From the NCBI RefSeq assembly GCF_900100605.1, contig NZ_FNCN01000034.1, forward strand, positions 13,434-62,210: a stretch of 48,777 nt of DNA, read 5' to 3'. The notes below the pieces were generated by a model, which was not told where the DNA came from, searched no databases, and worked only from the letters and a program-made list of their open reading frames with translations. Source of the DNA: Sinosporangium album (lineage in GTDB: Bacteria > Actinomycetota > Actinomycetes > Streptosporangiales > Streptosporangiaceae). A program made the translations under genes and the position numbers. Within the stretch, counting starts at the first letter, position 1. Every line of letters starts with the position of its first letter. Positions 4,905-29,285 of this stretch are shown here, piece after piece.

Positions 4905-6046
4905 CTTTCGAGGACGAGGGCCAGGCCCTGCCCGACGCCGATGCAGAGGGAGGCCAGGCCGGTGCCTGAACCGGCGGCGGCCAGCCGGTGGGCGACGGTG
5001 CCGACCAGGCGGGCCCCCGAGGCTCCGAGCGGATGGCCCAGGGCGATGGCCCCGCCGTGCGGGTTGACGATCTCGGGGTCGAGCTCGGGCAGGCCGGCGA
5101 GGCAACCCAGGACCTGGGCGGCGAAGGCCTCGTTCAGCTCGGCGGTCGCCACGTCCTCGAATTTTCTGCCCGCCTTGGCGAGGGCCTTCGTGACGGCTTC
5201 GACGGGGCCGAGGCCGAAGAAGCGGGGTTCGAGCGCGCTGACGCCGCTCGCCACGATCCTGGCCAGGGGCTCGCGCCCGCCGAGGCCCGCCTCGTCGGTG
5301 ATCAGCAGCACCGCCGCGCCGTCGCTGAGCGGTGACGAGTTGCCCGCGGTCACGGCGCCTCCGGCGCGGAAGGCCGGTTTCAGCCGGCCGAGCGCCTCCA
5401 GGGAGGTCTCCCGGCGGATGCCCTCGTCGGATGCAATGCCGGCGATGGCGGTGATCTCACGGTCGAACGAGGCCGCGGCGGCCTTCCGGTGGCTGGCCAG
5501 CGCGTAGGCGTCCTGCTCGTCGCGGCCGATGCCGTATTTGTCGGCGATCAGTTCGGCCCCCTCGCCGAGGGAGACCGTGTGCTCGCCCGCCATCCTGGGG
5601 TTCGTCAGCCGCCAGCCGAGCGAGGTGGAGACCAGCTCCTGGCCTCCGGCGGGGAACGCCCGGTCCGGCTTGGGCAGCACCCAGGGCGCCCGCGTCATCG
5701 ACTCCACGCCGCCCGCGACCACGACGGAGGCGTCCCCCAGGGCCACCATGCGGTATGCCTGGACGACGGCCTCCATGCCGGAGCCGCACAGCCGGTTCAC
5801 CGTGACGCCCGGCGTGGTCACCGAAAGGCCCGCCAGAAGGGCGGCCATGCGGGCCACGTTGCGGTTCTCCTCGCCGGCTCCGTTGGCGTTGCCGAGGATC
5901 ACCTCGTCCGCGGCCTCCAGCGCGTTGCGCTCGGCGAGAGCCCCGATGACGTGGGCGGCCAAATCGTCGGGGCGGACGCCCGACAGTGCTCCGCCGTATC
6001 GGCCGAAGGGGGTGCGGACCGCGTCGGCGATGTAGACGGCTCTCAC
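4901..6046 (-). CDS. pcaF: PcaF: beta-ketoadipyl-CoA thiolase
   Basis: 381-residue thiolase of the acetyl-CoA acetyltransferase family. It has the active-site cysteine in [10 protein letters not shown] (Cys87), NEAFAAQ, and the C-terminal [16 protein letters not shown] with catalytic His; the second Cys is in the SLCIGVGQG segment. It cleaves 3-oxoadipyl-CoA to succinyl-CoA and acetyl-CoA, the final step of the pathway. The GTG start (6046) overlaps the pcaJ stop as GTGA and is preceded by GGAGGTGG. A generic thiolase could also act on other acyl-CoAs, but the operon position fixes the role. Confidence 0.92.
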
Positions 6047-6672
6047 AGGGCCACCTCCGCGCCCGTACGGCTGCGCAGCTCGGCCGCGTCCACGCCCGGC
6101 GCGGTCTCGACCAGCCTCACGCCCTCCGGGCCGACGTCGAGGACGCCCAAGTCGGTGACGACCCGGTGCACGCACGCCCTGCCCGTCAAGGGAAGCGAGC
6201 ACTCCTCGACGATCTTCGGTGAGCCGTCCTTGGCGGTGTGCTCCATGACCACGATGACCTTGCGTGCCCCGTGGACCAGGTCCATCGCCCCGCCCATGCC
6301 CTTGACGAGCTTTCCGGGGACCATCCAGTTGGCGAGGTCGCCCCGGGCGGAGACCTGCATCGCGCCGAGCACCGCGACGTCGATGTGGCCGCCGCGGATC
6401 ATGCCGAACGACAGTGAGGAGTCGAAGAAGGAGGCTCCCGGGAGCACGGTGACCGTCTCCTTGCCCGCGTTGATCAGATCCGGGTCGACCTCGTCCTCGC
6501 GGGGGTAGGGGCCGACGCCGAGGATGCCGTTCTCCGAATGCAGCACCACGTCGACGCCCGGCGGCAGAAACGCAGGGATGCGCGTGGGCAGCCCGATGCC
6601 GAGGTTGACGTAGTCGCCGTCACGCAGTTCGGCTGCCGCGCGGGCGGCCATCTCATCGCGGGTCCAGCTCAT
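6043..6672 (-). CDS. pcaJ: PcaJ: 3-oxoadipate CoA-transferase subunit B
   Basis: 209 residues. [14 protein letters not shown] near the N-terminus and SENGILGVG, containing the catalytic Glu that forms the CoA thioester, identify the beta subunit of a family I CoA-transferase. With PcaI it moves CoA from succinyl-CoA to 3-oxoadipate. The ATG (6672) overlaps the pcaI stop as TGATG. The two subunits are encoded in the usual order. Confidence 0.92.

Positions 6673-20534: not shown

Positions 20535-20538
<4 letters not shown>
19435..20538 (+). CDS. MacA/HlyD-type efflux adaptor
   Basis: 367 residues from GTG 19435. Anchor helix GALGILLLGGAGAVYQTLG, lipoyl half-motifs FGTSGTVEKIHVKPGDKV and DLKAPFAGTVTAVNGTVGG around a short hairpin, then barrel domain (SFTESDVTKLKVGQTASISF). 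The C-terminus is Gly-rich (FPGGGGGFPGN). It links the ABC permease to the outside; in Gram-positives such adaptors are thought to direct substrate across the thick wall. No SD before the GTG; an upstream GTG (19339) would add residues encoded by the hairpin leader. It overlaps the ATPase gene as ATGA. Confidence 0.86.
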
Positions 20539-21325
<787 letters not shown>

Positions 21326-21329
<4 letters not shown>

Positions 21330-22594
21330 ACGGGCTGGAGATCCTGCGTTTCGCCCTGCGCGGCCTGGTGGCCAACAAGCTACGCAGCGCCCTGACCACC
21401 CTGGGCATCCTCATCGGCGTCGCCGCCGTCATCCTGCTGGTGGCGGTGGGTGAAGGATCCTCGCGCTCCATCACCCAGAACATCCAGCGCCTGGGCGCCA
21501 ACACGCTGACCATCTCCCCCTCCTTCTCCGGCGGCGGAGGAGGAGGCGGAGGCGGCGGAGGCATGGCGCGGCCGGGCGGCGGGCAGAACAGCGGCCCCAG
21601 AACCCAGGCCCGCCCGCTCGTCCTCGCCGACGCCAAAGCCCTGACCGACAAGACCCAGCTCCCCGCGGTGAAGAGCGTCTCCCCCGTCGTCACGGCCAAC
21701 TCCGCCGCAGCCACCCACGAGGGCGCCAGCCACACGATCTCGCAGGTGGTCGGGACCTATCCGAGCTATTTCGAGGCCGCCAACAAGCAGGTCGCCGAGG
21801 GCCAGTACTTCGTCAACGCCGACGTCGTGGCCGCTCGCAAGATCGTGGTCATCGGCAAGACCGTCGCCGAGGCGCTGTTCGGCCGGACCGAGCCGGTGGG
21901 CAAGGCGATCGCCATCTCCGGCGTGCCGTACACCGTGGTCGGGGTTCTGAAAGAGTCGGGCTCCGCCGGAGGCATGCAGGACGCCGACGACCTGGCCATC
22001 GCGCCGCTGCCCGCCGTACAGCAGTCGCTGACCGGCTTCGGCTCGCTCGGCTCGATCCTGGTCCAGGCGACCTCCGCCTCCGCCTCCGGCGACGCCCAGT
22101 CGCAGATCACCGCGGTGCTCAACCAGCGCCACGGCATCACCGCGACCGGCTCGGCCGACTACCGCATCCTCAACCAGGCCACCCTGCAGGAAACGGTCAG
22201 CACGGCGACCGGCACCTTCACCGTGCTGCTCGGTGCGGTCGCGGCCATCTCACTCCTGGTCGGCGGCATCGGCATCACCAACATCATGCTGGTCACGGTG
22301 ACCGAGCGGACCAGGGAGATCGGCATCCGCAAGGCCATCGGCGCCTCACGCGGCGCGATCCTCGGCCAGTTCCTGCTCGAAGCGACCCTGCTCAGCCTGG
22401 TCGGCGGCCTGACCGGAGTGGCGGTCGCGGTGGCCGGGGCGCAGTTCACCATCGCCGGGATCGAGCCGGTGATCGTGCCCTCCTCCGTGGCGCTGGCGCT
22501 CGGCGTCTCGGTGGGCATCGGCCTGTTCTTCGGCAGCTACCCGGCCAACCGGGCTGCCAAGCTCCGCCCGATCCAGGCGCTTCGCCATGAATAG
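21326..22594 (+). CDS. MacB-type ABC transporter permease
   Basis: 422 residues of the FtsX/MacB fold. TM1 (TTLGILIGVAAVILLVAVGEG), a large extracytoplasmic MacB_PCD domain, then three C-terminal TM helices (VLLGAVAAISLLVGGIGITN; VGGLTGVAVAVAGAQF; LALGVSVGIGLFFGSYPA), ending AAKLRPIQALRHE as usual. A run of ten or more glycines (GGCGGAGG-type codons near 21530-21565) interrupts the domain after TISPSF. Substrates of relatives are peptides, macrolides and lipopeptides; here unknown. Confidence 0.92.
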
Positions 22595-23460: not shown

Positions 23461-23545
23461 GCGACCGGAGGAGATCGCGAGCCGCAGCACGGTAGATCAT
23501 CGGCAGGATATCGCTGAACCGGTCGAACAGCGACCGCACACCCAT
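23461..23545 (-). pseudogene. Beginning of a further gene of the RiPP operon, truncated
   Basis: Twelve bases after the pentapeptide-gene stop there is a strong SD (GAGGAGGAG) and an ATG (23545). It starts MGVRSLFDRFSDILPMIYRA and continues ARDLLRSL. This resembles the opening of actinobacterial ABC exporters (short amphipathic start, then YRASPR-like entry to TM1), but no TM helix follows, and beyond about 23461 the frame is only antisense to the lipoprotein gene. I read it as a gene cut off where the efflux operon begins. Identification as an exporter is a guess. Confidence 0.5.
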
Positions 23546-23557
23546 CTCTCCTCCTCG

Positions 23558-24235
23558 CTAGTCCTTGAGGTCTTCGCCGTAGACGACCTCAAGCTCGGCC
23601 GCCAGCGCCTCGGCGAGCTGCGGGGTCTGCGACCGGTCGATGACGACGTGGCGGAGCGAGGACACTCCCCGGAGGGCGGACAGGTCGTTGCCGCGCAGGT
23701 CGAGGTCGCGGTACTTGCCGCCGTCGAACTCGGTCAATGTCAGGTCGCAGTCGTCGACGGTCACACCTCCGCTCAGGTCGGCTGCCGTGAAGGTGGCCTC
23801 GCGCAGGGAGCAGGACGAGAAGACGACCGGCCCGGCGACACGAAGGCGAGTGAAGACGGCGAGGTCGAGTTTGCACCGCTCGAAGATCACGTCCTCCAGC
23901 GTCACCACCTCCCAGGCGGCGCCGAGCAGTTTGCAGTCGGTGAAGACCACACGGGTGAGTCGGCTGTCGGTCCAGCACAGGCCGGACAGGTCGCATCCGG
24001 AGAACACCACCGAGTTCAGGCGCAGCCCGTCCAGGTGGATGCGCTGAGCGGCGAGGCCGGTGACGCGCCCCTCCACGAGCTGAACCTTCGACAGGGACAG
24101 CTCGCGCAGGCGTCCACCGGAGTAGGCGAACTCACGTAGGTCGCTCTCCCCGAGCGAACCGATCTCGTTCAGGTCCGCATCATCCAGACCGGGTAGCGTG
24201 ACGTGCGTCCGGCGCACGGTACGGATGTTCTGCAT
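23558..24235 (-). CDS. Pentapeptide-repeat protein in the RiPP operon
   Basis: 225 residues with repeated A(D/N)LxX-like units (FSGCDLSGL, FTDCKLLGA, FERCKLDLA, FSSCSLREATFTAADL, DLRGNDLSAL), predicting a right-handed quadrilateral beta helix over residues about 45-200. A short C-terminal acidic tail follows (EVVYGEDLKD). Such proteins include DNA-mimic gyrase protectors (Qnr, AlbG, McbG). Placed 77 bases after the precursor gene and transcribed with it, it may be the producer's immunity factor. Other pentapeptide proteins have unrelated or unknown roles. Confidence 0.8.
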   Translation of the reverse strand: MQNIRTVRRTHVTLPGLDDADLNEIGSLGESDLREFAYSGGRLRELSLSKVQLVEGRVTGLAAQRIHLDGLRLNSVVFSGCDLSGLCWTDSRLTRVVFTDCKLLGAAWEVVTLEDVIFERCKLDLAVFTRLRVAGPVVFSSCSLREATFTAADLSGGVTVDDCDLTLTEFDGGKYRDLDLRGNDLSALRGVSSLRHVVIDRSQTPQLAEALAAELEVVYGEDLKD

Positions 24236-24312
24236 AGGATCTTAGCCTCTCAGCGTGAGGTACCCGCAGGTGAGCGCTCGGCGATTCGACGCGTCCACCG
24301 CCGAGCACTTGG

Positions 24313-24507
24313 TTACTTCTTGCTCCAGTTGTCCCAGGATGGCCTGTTGTCGAATGGGCCGGGACTTTTGGCCCAGTTGTCCCACGACGGCCTGTTGTCG
24401 AACTTGGCCTGCACCGGTGCCTGCACAGTGTTGCCGGAGGTGTGGCAACGGATCAGGTCGCGGACCGCGTCCGAGTCGGTGGCGGCCAGGAACTCCAGAA
24501 CGGTCAC
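24313..24507 (-). CDS. amcA: AmcA-like multi-cyclophane RiPP precursor peptide
   Basis: 64 residues from the GTG at 24507, which overlaps the maturase stop (GTGA) and has AAGGAG 6 bases upstream. Leader about 1-35 (TVLEFLAATDSDAVRDLI ...). The C-terminal core has two copies of FDNRPSWDNW at 36-45 and 52-61, linked by AKSPGP and ending SKK. Each copy contains F-D-N and W-D-N, the aromatic-x-Asn pattern in which radical SAM enzymes join an aromatic ring carbon to the Asn beta carbon (three-residue cyclophanes). Up to four cyclophanes are therefore possible. The name follows the actinobacterial AmcA family as I remember it. The single Cys21 lies in the leader. Confidence 0.8.
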   Translation of the reverse strand: MTVLEFLAATDSDAVRDLIRCHTSGNTVQAPVQAKFDNRPSWDNWAKSPGPFDNRPSWDNWSKK

Positions 24508-25616
24508 GGCTGCTCCTTGGCTGCGGCGGTGGACAGTGCGGTGGCGAGGGCCTGGCGGGTCAGACGGCAGTAGGCGGTCTCGGTGCTGGCGAGGCTGCCG
24601 TTCTCGAAATACCTGTTGGCCGCCTGCGCACCCCGGCAGAAGTCCCAGAAGTCGCACCCGGCCCGGCAGCGGGACAGACCGGTCATGAACTCCTGGACGT
24701 AGCGCAGCCGGTGCGCCTGGGCGAGCATGCCGGCGATGCTCTGGTGGCGGACGTTGCCCGCCAGGAAGTCCCCGTAGCCGGGATCGGCGGTGTCGGCCAG
24801 CTCCGGCGACAGCAGCACCACGTCCCCGTCGCATGACACGGTGGGGATCGGATCCAGACGCCGACCGTCCCACTCCTCGCGCCGTCCGCTGCGAACCAGA
24901 CCGAGGTACTCGGCCAGGTGTTCCAGCTCCCTCACCACCGGGACATCGTCGCGGCGGCAGGACCATTCCAGGACTCCCGTCCAGAACCGCTCGGCCTGCT
25001 GCGGGGCGATGGAGACCGCCGTGCTGTTGACGCCCTCCATCTCCTCCACGTTCAGCCCGATGGTGTGCGGGCCGAGGCCGGCGAGGAAGTCCAGGAGCGC
25101 ATCCGGCTCCGAGACGCCCTCGGCACCCACCACCGCGATCACCGAGAAGGGAATCCCGTGGGCGCGCAGCCGCTCGATCCCGCGCACGATCCTGACGGAC
25201 GCCGGCCTGCCGCGCAGATCGACCCGCCGCGCGTTCAACACCGCAGGCCCGTCGATGCTCACCCCGACCCGGAAATCGTGGCGGACCAGCAGATCGCACC
25301 ACTCATCGTCGATCAAGGTGGCGTTGGTCTGCACATAGTGCCTGACACGCCCGGATCGGCGCAGGTCCTCGAACGGTGCGAGCAGCGCGGCGAATCTGGA
25401 CCGGCCGAGCGCGAGCGGTTCCCCTCCGTGCCAGACGATGCCGAGCGGGCCGCCGTTCCCGGCGAGTTCGGCCGCCGAGGCGGCCACCGCGGCGGCCGTC
25501 TCGGGGGACATCTCGCGCTTGAGGCGGCGCAGCAGCAGGTAGCAGTAGCTGCAGTCCAGGTTGCACAGGGTGGACGGCGGGCCGAACCAGCGGTCGAACT
25601 CCGATCGCCGGTTCAC
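24504..25616 (-). CDS. amcB: Radical SAM/SPASM cyclophane-forming peptide maturase (AmcB-like)
   Basis: 370 residues. The radical SAM cluster motif CNLDCSYC is near residue 18-25; GGEPL follows at the canonical distance (WHGGEPLALG). The C-terminal SPASM region has scattered cysteines (VSCDGD; SRCRAGCDFWDFC; ETAYC) to bind auxiliary 4Fe-4S clusters. It should activate SAM and form C-C links in the neighbouring FDN/WDN precursor. The GTG start (25616) overlaps the preceding small gene (GTGA), and the precursor overlaps its end, so the three are coupled. The length matches GrrM/AmcB-type maturases. Confidence 0.86.
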   Translation of the reverse strand: MNRRSEFDRWFGPPSTLCNLDCSYCYLLLRRLKREMSPETAAAVAASAAELAGNGGPLGIVWHGGEPLALGRSRFAALLAPFEDLRRSGRVRHYVQTNATLIDDEWCDLLVRHDFRVGVSIDGPAVLNARRVDLRGRPASVRIVRGIERLRAHGIPFSVIAVVGAEGVSEPDALLDFLAGLGPHTIGLNVEEMEGVNSTAVSIAPQQAERFWTGVLEWSCRRDDVPVVRELEHLAEYLGLVRSGRREEWDGRRLDPIPTVSCDGDVVLLSPELADTADPGYGDFLAGNVRHQSIAGMLAQAHRLRYVQEFMTGLSRCRAGCDFWDFCRGAQAANRYFENGSLASTETAYCRLTRQALATALSTAAAKEQP

Positions 25617-25846
25617 CTCGTGTCCTCCTCGGAGGCGCGTGCCGAGGCCAGGGCGAGCGCGGTGACCTCGTCCCAGGCCCGGTAGCAGCGGCGGTGCAGG
25701 AACAAGGCCCGCAGCGCCTCGCTGAACGGCCACACCAGCTCGTGCATCCCCCTGGCGTGGGCGTCGGCCTTCACGGCCAGCAGCTCCTCCAACGAACCCT
25801 CAAGCCAGTCCAGCGCGAGCGTCTCTTCGGTGTCGTCTGCGGACAT
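25613..25846 (-). CDS. Small helical (TPR-like) protein of the RiPP operon
   Basis: 77 residues from an ATG with SD AAGGAAG. The sequence LDWLEGSLEELLAVKADAHA, then ELVWPFSEALRALFLHRR, then WDEVTALALASAR looks like two TPR helix pairs, the kind found C-terminal to NB-ARC domains of SARP/STAND regulators. It is either a stand-alone scaffold or the relic of such a regulator. The GTGA overlap with the maturase gene argues for a working partner. No recognisable precursor-binding RRE fold is seen. Confidence 0.6.
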   Translation of the reverse strand: MSADDTEETLALDWLEGSLEELLAVKADAHARGMHELVWPFSEALRALFLHRRCYRAWDEVTALALASARASEEDTR

Positions 25847-26003
25847 ACTTCTTCCTTTCCGGGTGATGACTCGGACCAGTCCCCTGGGTGCCGGAGGCCG
25901 CAGCGGGCGGCGCGTCGGACGGATCGTCCTGCCAGCGGGCCTCCCACTCGCCGGACTCCTGTCCGCTGACCTGGAACTCGGGGATCTCGCGGCCGGGGCT
26001 CAC
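25800..26003 (-). CDS. Small ORF coupled within the RiPP operon, unknown function
   Basis: 67 codons from the GTG 26003 that overlaps the preceding stop (GTGA). Third positions are almost all G/C for the first 40 codons (SPGREIPEFQVSGQESGEWE and following ARWQDDPSD), then bias is lost while the frame overlaps the start of the next gene by 47 bases. The first half is acidic with two Trp. It could be a true small protein, a second peptide substrate, or a larger gene truncated at the 3' end. Confidence 0.45.
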   Translation of the reverse strand: MSPGREIPEFQVSGQESGEWEARWQDDPSDAPPAAASGTQGTGPSHHPERKKYVRRRHRRDARAGLA

Positions 26004-26290
26004 GCCGGCCCCGCGATCATCGACGAGCGGATCAGGCGGGGGATGTCGCCGATGTCCTCGGGGCGCACCATGAACAGTTTGTTGCCCTGCGGCGGCAGCG
26101 TCACCAGGTAGTGGCGGCTGTGCGCCCCGCCCGCGACCTTCGCCAGCTCCCACCCGCCGCCGTCGGTCACGTCCAGCTCCTCGGGCAGGGCGCGGCCGTT
26201 GGGGGAAGAGCCGAGCCGGATCAGGGTCGCGGTGAACCGTTCGGCGTGCAGGAGGGCCCGGACCCGCTCCAGCGGGCCGGCGTTCTGTAC
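26000..26290 (-). CDS. Unknown ~96-aa protein without a standard start codon
   Basis: The frame shows strong coding bias from about 26290 (TVQNAGPLERVRALLHAERF, then ATLIRLGSSPNGRALPEEL) to the TGA at 26002-26000, ending FMVRPEDIGDIPRLIRSS and then MIAGPA. No ATG, GTG or TTG lies ahead of this block; the first GTG is within the protein (LDVTDGG). GAGGG sits 7 bases before a GTA at 26290, suggesting a lost GTG. The open frame continues back without interruption to the XRE gene's TAG (26407-26405) in the same frame. Likely first gene of the RiPP operon, or the tail of a former fusion. Coordinates of the 5' end are provisional. Confidence 0.5.
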   Translation of the reverse strand, partial: VQNAGPLERVRALLHAERFTATLIRLGSSPNGRALPEELDVTDGGGWELAKVAGGAHSRHYLVTLPPQGNKLFMVRPEDIGDIPRLIRSSMIAGPA

Positions 26291-26404
26291 GGTCGTTCCC
26301 TCGGTGGTCTGCCGTTGGGCGGGGACCTCGCGGGGACCTCGCGGGGGGTCGCGGTGTGTGCTGAGGTCATGCAGACGACGGTAGGAGGGGGTGGTTCGCA
26401 GTGG

Positions 26405-27262
26405 CTACGGAATTGCGCCTGATTGCGGTAGACGGCTTCGAGCTTCCTCGATCAGCGCTCGGGCAGGGCTTCCGTAAACGGCCATAGAGTGCAGCATCTC
26501 AAATGCCCTCAAGTAGATCGCGATCTCGTCCGGCCTGGTAGTGCGAATGCGTCCGGTCCAGAGGTCATCACGAACCAGTTGATCATCAAAGATGTAGAAA
26601 CACTCTCCGGGATACAGGATTCTTCGCCTGGCCGGGGGAATGATGCCTAGTGCCACATTTGGCAGCCTGGCGACTCGGGCAAGGAAGTCAAATTGTTCAT
26701 GCATCGCTTCGGTGTTTCCCATCGAAGCGTTGAGCGCTCCGGCCTCCAGTACGAAAGCGTAGGTGTTGGAGCCATTGATGACTAGATGCTGTCGGGACAG
26801 CCGCGCCTCGGTAGCCTCTGCCAAGTCATCCGTGGGCAAACTGTACAGTCGTGCGTTAGCTTCCATTACTCCGTACACGTAGCCGCGCGTTTGGAGGATG
26901 CCTGGGATGACCCCCGACTCGTAGACCTTTAGCAGCTTGGTCTTCTCATACAGAGAGTTTCCTCTTGCCTGTATGTAGGGTTGTCCGGCGCGCATAGCCT
27001 GGCGGTGCTCTTCCCACATGAGCGCGATTTCGCGCCGCGTCGCAATTAGTTCGGGGATGAGGCGGGCGACCCCACACGCGATGGCCCAGGAGCGAATGTC
27101 GTCCTCGGAGGCGTTTGACTGCCCCAACTCGATTCGAGTGACTTTCGCGGGGTGGCATTGCAGCATTTCCGCCAACTGCTTCGCATGCATTCCGGCATCT
27201 TTGCGTATGTTACGAAGCCTGACACCAAATGCCTTCTTTGCAGCGTCTGCCTGTTCGGTCAT
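26405..27262 (-). CDS. XRE-family regulator with DUF5753 domain
   Basis: 285 residues. The N-terminal helix-turn-helix is LRNIRKDAGMHAKQLAEMLQ with PAKVTRIELGQ; residues about 100-275 are the DUF5753 domain (YESGVIPGILQTRGYVYGVM; RQHLVINGS; YFI FDD-type ending). Proteins of this class are abundant in filamentous actinomycetes and usually act with a small partner. Codon usage is markedly less G/C biased than the flanking genes. Pairs here with a DUF6879 gene 8 bases upstream. Confidence 0.86.
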   Translation of the reverse strand: MTEQADAAKKAFGVRLRNIRKDAGMHAKQLAEMLQCHPAKVTRIELGQSNASEDDIRSWAIACGVARLIPELIATRREIALMWEEHRQAMRAGQPYIQARGNSLYEKTKLLKVYESGVIPGILQTRGYVYGVMEANARLYSLPTDDLAEATEARLSRQHLVINGSNTYAFVLEAGALNASMGNTEAMHEQFDFLARVARLPNVALGIIPPARRRILYPGECFYIFDDQLVRDDLWTGRIRTTRPDEIAIYLRAFEMLHSMAVYGSPARALIEEARSRLPQSGAIP

Positions 27263-28558: not shown

Positions 28559-29285
28559 AATGAGCCTTTTTCATCCTCGGGCGACCTCGTAGTTCTGTAG
28601 AACTGCGATGGCCTTGCACATGTGTCCGGCCTTACTCGGGCTGCAGCGGAGTTTGCGGAGGATGCGCCAGCTCTTGAGCTGCGCGTTCGCACGCTCACCC
28701 GGACCGCGGAGCCGGGAGTGGGACCGGTTGGCCCGCTTCTGGGACTCGGGCTTCCTCTTTCCTTTGCAGGGCGTGACAACGGGGCCGCCCGCTCCCTGGT
28801 ACGCCTTGTCCGCGAGCACGGGGAGCCCGACCTGCTCCAGGCGGCGGAGGACGCCCCCGCTCTGGCGGCGGCCAGGTCGTGGACGCTGCCGGGCAGCGCC
28901 CCCGACGCCCATGGGAGTGCCCCTTCGGCGAGGCTATGACCTGGAGGTTCATGCCGTGCGTGCGATGTTTGCCGGAGTGGTGCGGCCGGTCGGCCCTGAC
29001 CCGGTCGGTCCAGATGAGCGTGCCGTCGAGCACCAGGTGGTGCAGCCCGTCCCGCCCGGCCTTCCCCAGCACCCGGCCGAGCTTCGGGATCGGGCGGACA
29101 GGAACGCGACGGTCTCCTCGACATAGCGCCAGGCGGTCGCCGCCGAGACGCCGAAACCGGCTCCGAGTTCGCGGAACGTCTCGCCTTTGCGCAGGTGGAC
29201 CGGTACGAGCATGGCCTGCTGCCCTGGATTGAGCCGACGCCAGACGCTTCCGACCGCCTTGCGGCGTCGGCGGATGAGGCCGGCG
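28559..29285 (-). pseudogene. Degenerate IS5-family transposase (frameshifted)
   Basis: Three pieces in different frames form one DDE transposase: LNPGQQAMLVPVHLRKGETF (near 29240-29180), then HHLVLDGTLIWTDRV (near 29045-29000), then VLADKAYQGAGGPVVTP with ERANAQLKSWRILRKLRCSP, ending VLQNYEVARG (stop at 28571-28573). At least two frameshifts make it inactive. The N-terminus has no start codon. Matches the IS5-type transposases common in Streptomyces (IS112-like). Confidence 0.72.

Follow-up and report, generated by a model that had tools for sequence, protein, structure and literature searches.

A pentapeptide-repeat protein gene accompanies the AmcA/AmcB pair of Sinosporangium album and its relatives: a putative immunity gene of a predicted triceptide cassette

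Introduction

A 48,777-nucleotide stretch of DNA of the soil actinobacterium Sinosporangium album (contig NZ_FNCN01000034.1, positions 13,434 to 62,210; referred to below as the window) contains a gene for a radical SAM peptide maturase, amcB, followed by a gene for a short precursor peptide, amcA, and a gene for a pentapeptide-repeat protein (PRP). The locus raises the question of why a PRP should be encoded next to the genes of a predicted ribosomally synthesized and post-translationally modified peptide (RiPP), and whether it takes part in the making of this peptide, protects the cell against it, or has a function of its own. An earlier note, made from the DNA letters and their open reading frames, had described these genes as a part of a longer operon coupled by short overlaps, and had proposed immunity as the function of the PRP. 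Judging by the sequences of related loci, the conserved unit is amcB-amcA-PRP, a predicted minimal triceptide cassette.

Results

Maturase, precursor and PRP

The frames of amcB, amcA and the PRP gene, as well as the two exact copies of the core repeat, were verified as the earlier note had placed them (Table 1). The product of amcB scores 484.7 bits against the NCBIfam profile NF041718 (curated cut-off 425) and that of amcA 73.3 bits against NF041721 (curated cut-off 40), which upholds the assignment of an AmcB-type maturase and of a two-repeat aromatic-x-Asn precursor. Pfam finds a Radical_SAM match in the amcB product, and amcB is one open frame that spans positions 25-378 of the 380-position profile built for this analysis. 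The single further maturase relative in the same genome is far weaker (E 7.4e-10). The layout of the amcA core is FDNRPSWDNW-AKSPGP-FDNRPSWDNW-SKK, with two F-D-N and two W-D-N motifs. A gap of 77 bases, with no overlap, separates amcA from the PRP gene, whose product exceeds the Pfam gathering scores of PF13599 (55.7 bits vs. 38) and PF00805 (41.1 bits vs. 20.2). We regard it as practically certain that the maturase and the precursor are an AmcA/AmcB pair and that the PRP is a member of the cassette.

Table 1. Features of the amc locus and its borders (window coordinates)
Feature	Coordinates	Strand	Description or basis
amcB	24504..25616	-	370-aa radical SAM peptide maturase with GTG start and CxxxCxxC motif
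amcA	24313..24507	-	64-aa precursor peptide; GTGA shared by its start and the amcB stop
Core repeat 1	24373..24402	-	FDNRPSWDNW (F-D-N and W-D-N); translation
Core repeat 2	24325..24354	-	FDNRPSWDNW (F-D-N and W-D-N); translation
PRP gene	23558..24235	-	225 aa, proposed immunity protein; Pfam, synteny, model
Probable relic of alpha-ketoglutarate oxygenase gene	23507..23545	-	13 codons, MGVRSLFDRFSDI; match to relatives
Deletion relics of a 119-aa gene and a 744-aa NB-ARC/TPR gene, outside the cassette	25634..26406	-	alignment to locus L184

The PRP goes with one type of precursor

A search with NF041718 matched 43 of 341 genomes of the family to which S. album belongs (Streptosporangiaceae) at E<=1e-50, of which 28 were over the cut-off; flanks were compared for 41 of the 43, that is for all but G269 and G278, which are below the cut-off. 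Of the 28 over-cut-off loci, 25 (among them that of the window) have a PRP match downstream of amcA, with identities down to 32%, and this recurrence bears out the counting of the PRP into the cassette. The loci without a PRP are those of G254, G168 and G081. Near G168 and G081, as well as near G330, which is just below the cut-off, neither an FDN/WDN precursor nor a PRP was found. Streptomyces sp. CBMA156 (L005) has both the PRP and the oxygenase described below, while in G530, which belongs to a different family, the PRP is divergent (119 bits) and lies on the opposite strand, tail to tail with amcB and amcA.

At seven loci of AmcB relatives from Nucisporomicrobium, Micromonospora and Actinoplanes (L006-L012) no PRP match was obtained (7 of 7). 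The precursors of six of them (L006, L008, L009, L010, L011 and L012) end in AWNHFENIPTFYNWNNRPR; no precursor was found for L007. The maturases of G430 and G521 are over the AmcB cut-off, and they are also accompanied by a precursor with the AWNHFENIPTFYNWNNRPR end and by no PRP nearby. Therefore, an AmcB-type enzyme does not need a PRP. Since the PRP is present with the FDN/WDN precursor and absent with the other one, it goes with the product and not with the enzyme. Seven more distant relatives (L080-L086) gave no PRP match either.

The AWNHFENIPTFYNWNNRPR end is near-invariant in L006, L008-L012, L140 and L141, where it occurs beside an AmcB relative, which suggests a housekeeping-like peptide; the genes upstream in L006-L012 and L140-L141 look, from their sequences, like purF and purM. 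Other small frames rich in aromatic-x-Asn motifs were noticed near distant AmcB relatives in L013, L015 (downstream) and L019 (upstream), the one in L013 having WGNGGWHNGG repeats about 500 bases upstream of the maturase.

Retention of the PRP after loss of the maker genes

When 338 family genomes were searched with a PRP profile (alignment A1), with at most 8 candidate places scored per genome, 40 matches of at least 216 bits were obtained, a threshold that favours intact PRPs. At these 40 loci amcB is intact in 24, damaged in 8 (G078, with a frame change near the C-terminus, G224, G304, G064, G292, G120, G095, and G118, with a shortened amcA only), and absent without any trace in 8 (G312, G310, G309, G044, G206, G008, G193 and G103). 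An intact PRP frame is present at 39 of the 40 loci; the exception is G224, whose frame is without the N-terminal motif. Thus, of the 39 loci that have an intact Amc-type PRP, 15 are without an intact amcB (14 of 38 if G078, which may represent a sequencing error, is set aside), while the PRP is missing in 3 of 27 loci with an intact over-cut-off amcB, or in 1 of 25 (G254) when only precursors of FDN/WDN type are counted. The Fisher p value is 0.023 for the former comparison (15/39 vs. 3/27) and 0.0023 for the latter (15/39 vs. 1/25). The frequent survival of the PRP after the loss of peptide-making genes suggests that it protects against the peptide.

In a PRP tree of 63 rows, the PRPs of 25 linked loci and 8 broken loci and the 8 orphans, together with 6 other PRPs, are separated by a branch of 100/100 support from the 16 remaining PRPs, and the orphans are nested among the linked PRPs. 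The tree implies 7 changes for the orphans (5 forced by starred branches) and 8 for the broken loci (7 forced), and hence the losses of the maker genes were repeated. In 11 loci that are devoid of amcB or contain only remnants, the shared DNA covers the PRP and, in three of them, also the amc remnant; the only other shared DNA consists of three short matches (87-219 bases) away from the PRP. As calculated by a simple Nei-Gojobori count on chosen pairs, dN/dS is 0.18-0.49 in 12 pairs of orphan or broken-locus PRPs, 0.08-0.53 in 21 linked pairs, and at most 0.63 between the two sets. Orphan and broken-locus PRPs stay under constraint.

The S. album genome itself contains a second, decayed amc locus on another of its contigs, C59 (L143, about 5700-6400), with remains of the AmcA core end (NKPSWDNWSKK), of the PRP and of the C-terminal part of the oxygenase.

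Predicted fold of the PRP

The monomer model of the PRP, built from four sequences, has a pLDDT of 87.5 and represents a beta-helix with a C-terminal helix (residues 201-214). The top Foldseek ranks for this model are occupied by EfsQnr, AlbG, 6fls and MfpA. A profile search covered EfsQnr nearly end to end (E 1.3e-23) and matched AlbG, MfpA and QnrB1 as well. All of the 29 PRPs analysed are acidic (pI 4.5-5.3). According to PMC8145042, the C-terminal helix of MfpA, EfsQnr, QnrB1 and AlbG builds a head-to-head dimer.

Downstream border: a probable oxygenase relic

The start of another gene, which the earlier note had seen next to the PRP gene, lies at position 23545. Its 13 codons match the beginning of a longer gene (about 236 codons) located behind the PRP in L060, L065, L069 and other loci, and the similarity stops thereafter; the window most likely retains a relic instead of a gene. 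Of 338 family genomes, 19 contain a match to a profile built from the 236-aa protein (alignment A4); the gene is full-length in 8 of these, each time beside a PRP. With that of Streptomyces sp. CBMA156, full-length copies are known from 9 other loci, as compared with the 13 codons of the window. Fragments were found in further genomes, and the one match listed for the S. album genome is the fragment on contig C59.

Neither Pfam nor NCBIfam has a family that matches the product of this fourth gene, whose structure model is of low confidence (pLDDT 38.4). Among PDB sequences, its family matches MicC (9vkm), an alpha-ketoglutarate-dependent non-heme iron oxygenase, with E 3.1e-9 over 110 positions that include the HxDN and HDGST stretches. 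A literature search for MicC found no paper. The fourth gene is, as its similarities suggest, most likely an accessory tailoring gene that was lost in the window; its accessory nature is indicated by the number of family genomes in which it is full-length (8 of 338) vs. the 24 family loci with intact amcB and PRP.

Next to distant AmcB relatives, weak matches to the oxygenase profile were obtained in G278, G259 and G283. In G017 (L083, 7034-9073), a single 679-aa frame combines a stretch weakly matching this profile with a maturase of GrrM/OscB type (413 bits, cut-off 310). A small FDN/WDN-rich frame lies just upstream of it, and the 679-aa frame may be a natural fusion of two tailoring enzymes.

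Upstream border: relics of another locus

The description of the locus as a many-gene coupled operon did not stand. Overlaps of 4 bases (GTGA) are present at 26003/26000, 25616/25613 and 24507/24504, but between the 26003 open reading frame (ORF), which stops at 25800, and the 25846 ORF the overlap amounts to 47 bases. A comparison of the neighbourhoods of AmcB-like genes, which the earlier note had suggested, showed that the PRP gene recurs, in contrast to the three small upstream ORFs, for which no tblastn match (E<=0.01) was obtained at 55 other amcB or amcB-like loci. These 55 include L004 and L069, which are the same locus; L072 and L069 look like the loci L003 (Rhizohabitans) and L004 (Streptosporangium minutum).

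The origin of these ORFs is indicated by L184, a locus of another genome of the same genus (G210), to which the region upstream of amcB aligns in three blocks of 533, 75 and 184 columns, with 87-93% identity and two gaps. L184 has genes for a 119-aa protein and for a 744-aa protein, the latter with NB-ARC and TPR domains assigned by Pfam, and then another radical SAM gene. The 77-aa ORF of the window is composed of two pieces of the 744-aa protein, and the 67-aa ORF spans a junction. The start codon (ATG) of the 119-aa protein corresponds to position 26370, in a reading frame other than that of the 26000 block. In many family genomes (46 of 120 with a match) sequences related to the 77-aa piece form part of larger frames, and full-length relatives of the 114-aa block are present on contig C59 (86%) and in G210 (82%). 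Hence, the three ORFs were rejected as operon members, on the grounds of the missing counterparts and of the alignment to L184. Its larger relatives being about 740 residues long, the 77-aa ORF had been considered as a fragment of an FxsB-type maturase, but Pfam finds NB-ARC and TPR domains in the L184 protein instead. Taken together, the relics on both sides imply that a patched junction produced part of the chain of overlaps by chance and that the conserved unit ends with amcB on one side and the PRP on the other.

In L184 (6202-9625), the 744-aa protein gene overlaps the radical SAM gene, which matches no assigned family; the 744-aa protein weakly resembles AfsR and HaaT, a TPR protein of a cyclophane RiPP. 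In the window, a fragment of a DDE transposase (Pfam DDE_Tnp_4) lies further upstream, at 28571-28912, and may bear on rearrangements there. An ABC transporter ATPase and a permease of MacB/FtsX type are encoded at 20535-22594 of the window, in convergent orientation to the cassette (plus strand). There was no sign of their recurrence with amcAB, though these families were not searched for at other loci.

Discussion

Proposed function of the cassette

Results of our analysis lead us to propose that AmcB would join the Phe or Trp of each of the four aromatic-D-N motifs of AmcA to the Asn two residues on, forming up to four three-residue cyclophanes. Such ring formation would be expected from the AmcA/AmcB family assignment and from the chemistry of OscB, which, according to PMC11002830, crosslinks a Trp or Phe with the Asn that lies two positions further along. 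The leader of AmcA would then be removed by an unlinked protease, and the product would be an antibacterial peptide, with the PRP as its immunity protein. The PRP, an acidic beta-helix that probably dimerises through its C-terminal helix, may shield DNA gyrase from the peptide or free it, in the way attributed to McbG for microcin B17 and to AlbG for albicidin.

The immunity function, guessed in the earlier note, receives indirect support, since the PRP is linked to one product type, absent with another, and retained after the loss of the makers; we consider it fairly likely. That gyrase is the target is suggested by the predicted fold and by the precedents, and here belief and doubt are nearly balanced, with doubt slightly stronger. 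As to the whole, we lean, by a little, towards a triceptide system with PRP immunity in which gyrase is probably shielded.

Several observations weigh against this reading. Under a null weighted by gene length, the asymmetry between the losses of amcB and of the PRP has p values from 0.005 to 0.10, and the tests ignore relatedness. The PRP itself decays as well, as shown by the stop in G090, the internal deletion in G246, the fragments in G096 and G115, the C59 copy of S. album with its internal deletion and lost end, and the frame of G224 without its N-terminal segment. Leaving G224 aside, an intact copy is still present in three of these five genomes (that of S. album, G096 and G115), which redundancy would permit. 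In G254 an intact amcB and a precursor of FDN/WDN type occur with no PRP nearby, and G302 has its amcA divided between two frames, beside intact neighbours. Concerning gyrase, the best match of the PRP model by TM-score is 6fls (0.77/0.80), a PRP of unconfirmed function, and the profile search gives designed PRP-like solenoids scores close to that of MfpA, so the ranking alone is no proof of a gyrase role. Furthermore, the PRP is far below the curated cut-offs for Qnr (NF033086, 44.2 bits vs. 240) and MfpA (NF000349, 37.2 bits vs. 360). By these cut-offs it is neither a Qnr nor an MfpA protein, and that it works like one may be proposed only by analogy.

Alternative explanations

The retention of orphan PRPs under constraint, at unrelated places in genomes without an amcB match, would also be expected if the PRP were a general modulator of gyrase or of other DNA-related functions, useful alone and merely fixed behind amcAB, and many other PRPs of unknown role occur in the same genomes. 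We consider this unlikely, as all 41 linked, broken-locus and orphan PRPs, together with the 6 others mentioned, are split from the remaining 16 PRPs by the fully supported branch of the tree, with orphans nested among linked PRPs, and as loci with the other type of precursor have no PRP. The tight linkage and the constant gene order could instead point to a biosynthetic partner of AmcB, such as a precursor carrier, a chaperone or an export adaptor. This is the least probable of the explanations weighed here: amcB is broken or absent in 15 of the 39 loci where the PRP is intact, over-cut-off AmcB with the other precursor has no PRP nearby in both cases (G430 and G521), and the precursor-bearing locus of G254 has none.

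The clustering of neighbours revealed no recurring transporter or protease gene in the cassette, as might be the case if the product were a signal or an internal regulator that kills no cells, with the PRP as its receptor or regulatory part. The persistence of the PRP in 8 of 40 loci from which both amcA and amcB are missing and the match of its fold to gyrase-protecting PRPs make this quite improbable. A different doubt concerns the strain itself, in which the cassette could be decaying with no finished product made, given the reduction of the oxygenase gene to 13 codons, the decay of the second amc locus, and the relics lying right against amcB. The frames of amcB, amcA and the PRP gene are all intact in this strain and the oxygenase appears to be accessory, so we regard decay as rather unlikely, though it deserves somewhat more credit than a general modulator. 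A reading of the locus as a defence system was discarded: PADLOC assigned nothing to the PRP and gave only weak viperin matches for AmcB.

Returning to immunity, a broader view can be offered with more reserve than any part of the proposal above. The AMC triceptides of this actinobacterial family might join microcin B17 as a second class of gyrase-poisoning RiPPs, built through cyclophane formation by radical SAM enzymes and each provided with a dedicated PRP immunity protein; the orphan PRPs would stem from repeated losses of the makers and would be kept since neighbours still make the peptide. A conserved gene resembling gyrase shields gives the whole predicted peptide family a named, testable target, and may serve as a marker for finding products worth isolating. 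The orphan PRPs of non-producers would be a natural system for the study of immunity kept without the toxin, and the MicC-like oxygenase, found in one genome in frame with a GrrM/OscB-type maturase, points to further chemistry.

Comparison with known systems

AmcA and AmcB are already named families; what is new here, within the searches made, is the conserved PRP as a cassette member, as judged from the sequences compared. Literature searches on AmcA/AmcB, in which subscription journals were thinly covered, yielded no statement that ties a PRP to these families, and a search combining pentapeptide repeat with cyclophane found no paper. The locus shares with the described AmcA/AmcB family (NF041721, NF041718) scores over both cut-offs and an aromatic-D-N precursor adjoining the maturase. 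However, the NCBIfam names and descriptions mention neither the PRP, conserved here, nor the MicC-like oxygenase of the relatives. The similarity to MicC concerns the fourth gene of those relatives, whereas the window keeps 13 codons only. The maturase is related to the triceptide enzymes OscB/GrrM (TIGR04261, 241.2 bits), yet it remains under their curated cut-off of 310. With EfsQnr, AlbG, MfpA and QnrB1 the PRP has in common the fold, the C-terminal helix and the acidity, at an identity of about 16-21% and below the Qnr and MfpA cut-offs. PMC10886550 and PMC12406682 describe PRP self-resistance against gyrase inhibitors in the microcin B17 and speirobactin operons. The microcin B17 operon likewise combines a RiPP with a PRP immunity gene (McbG), with gyrase as the target; its product is formed by azole chemistry, while cyclophanes are predicted for the cassette of S. 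album.

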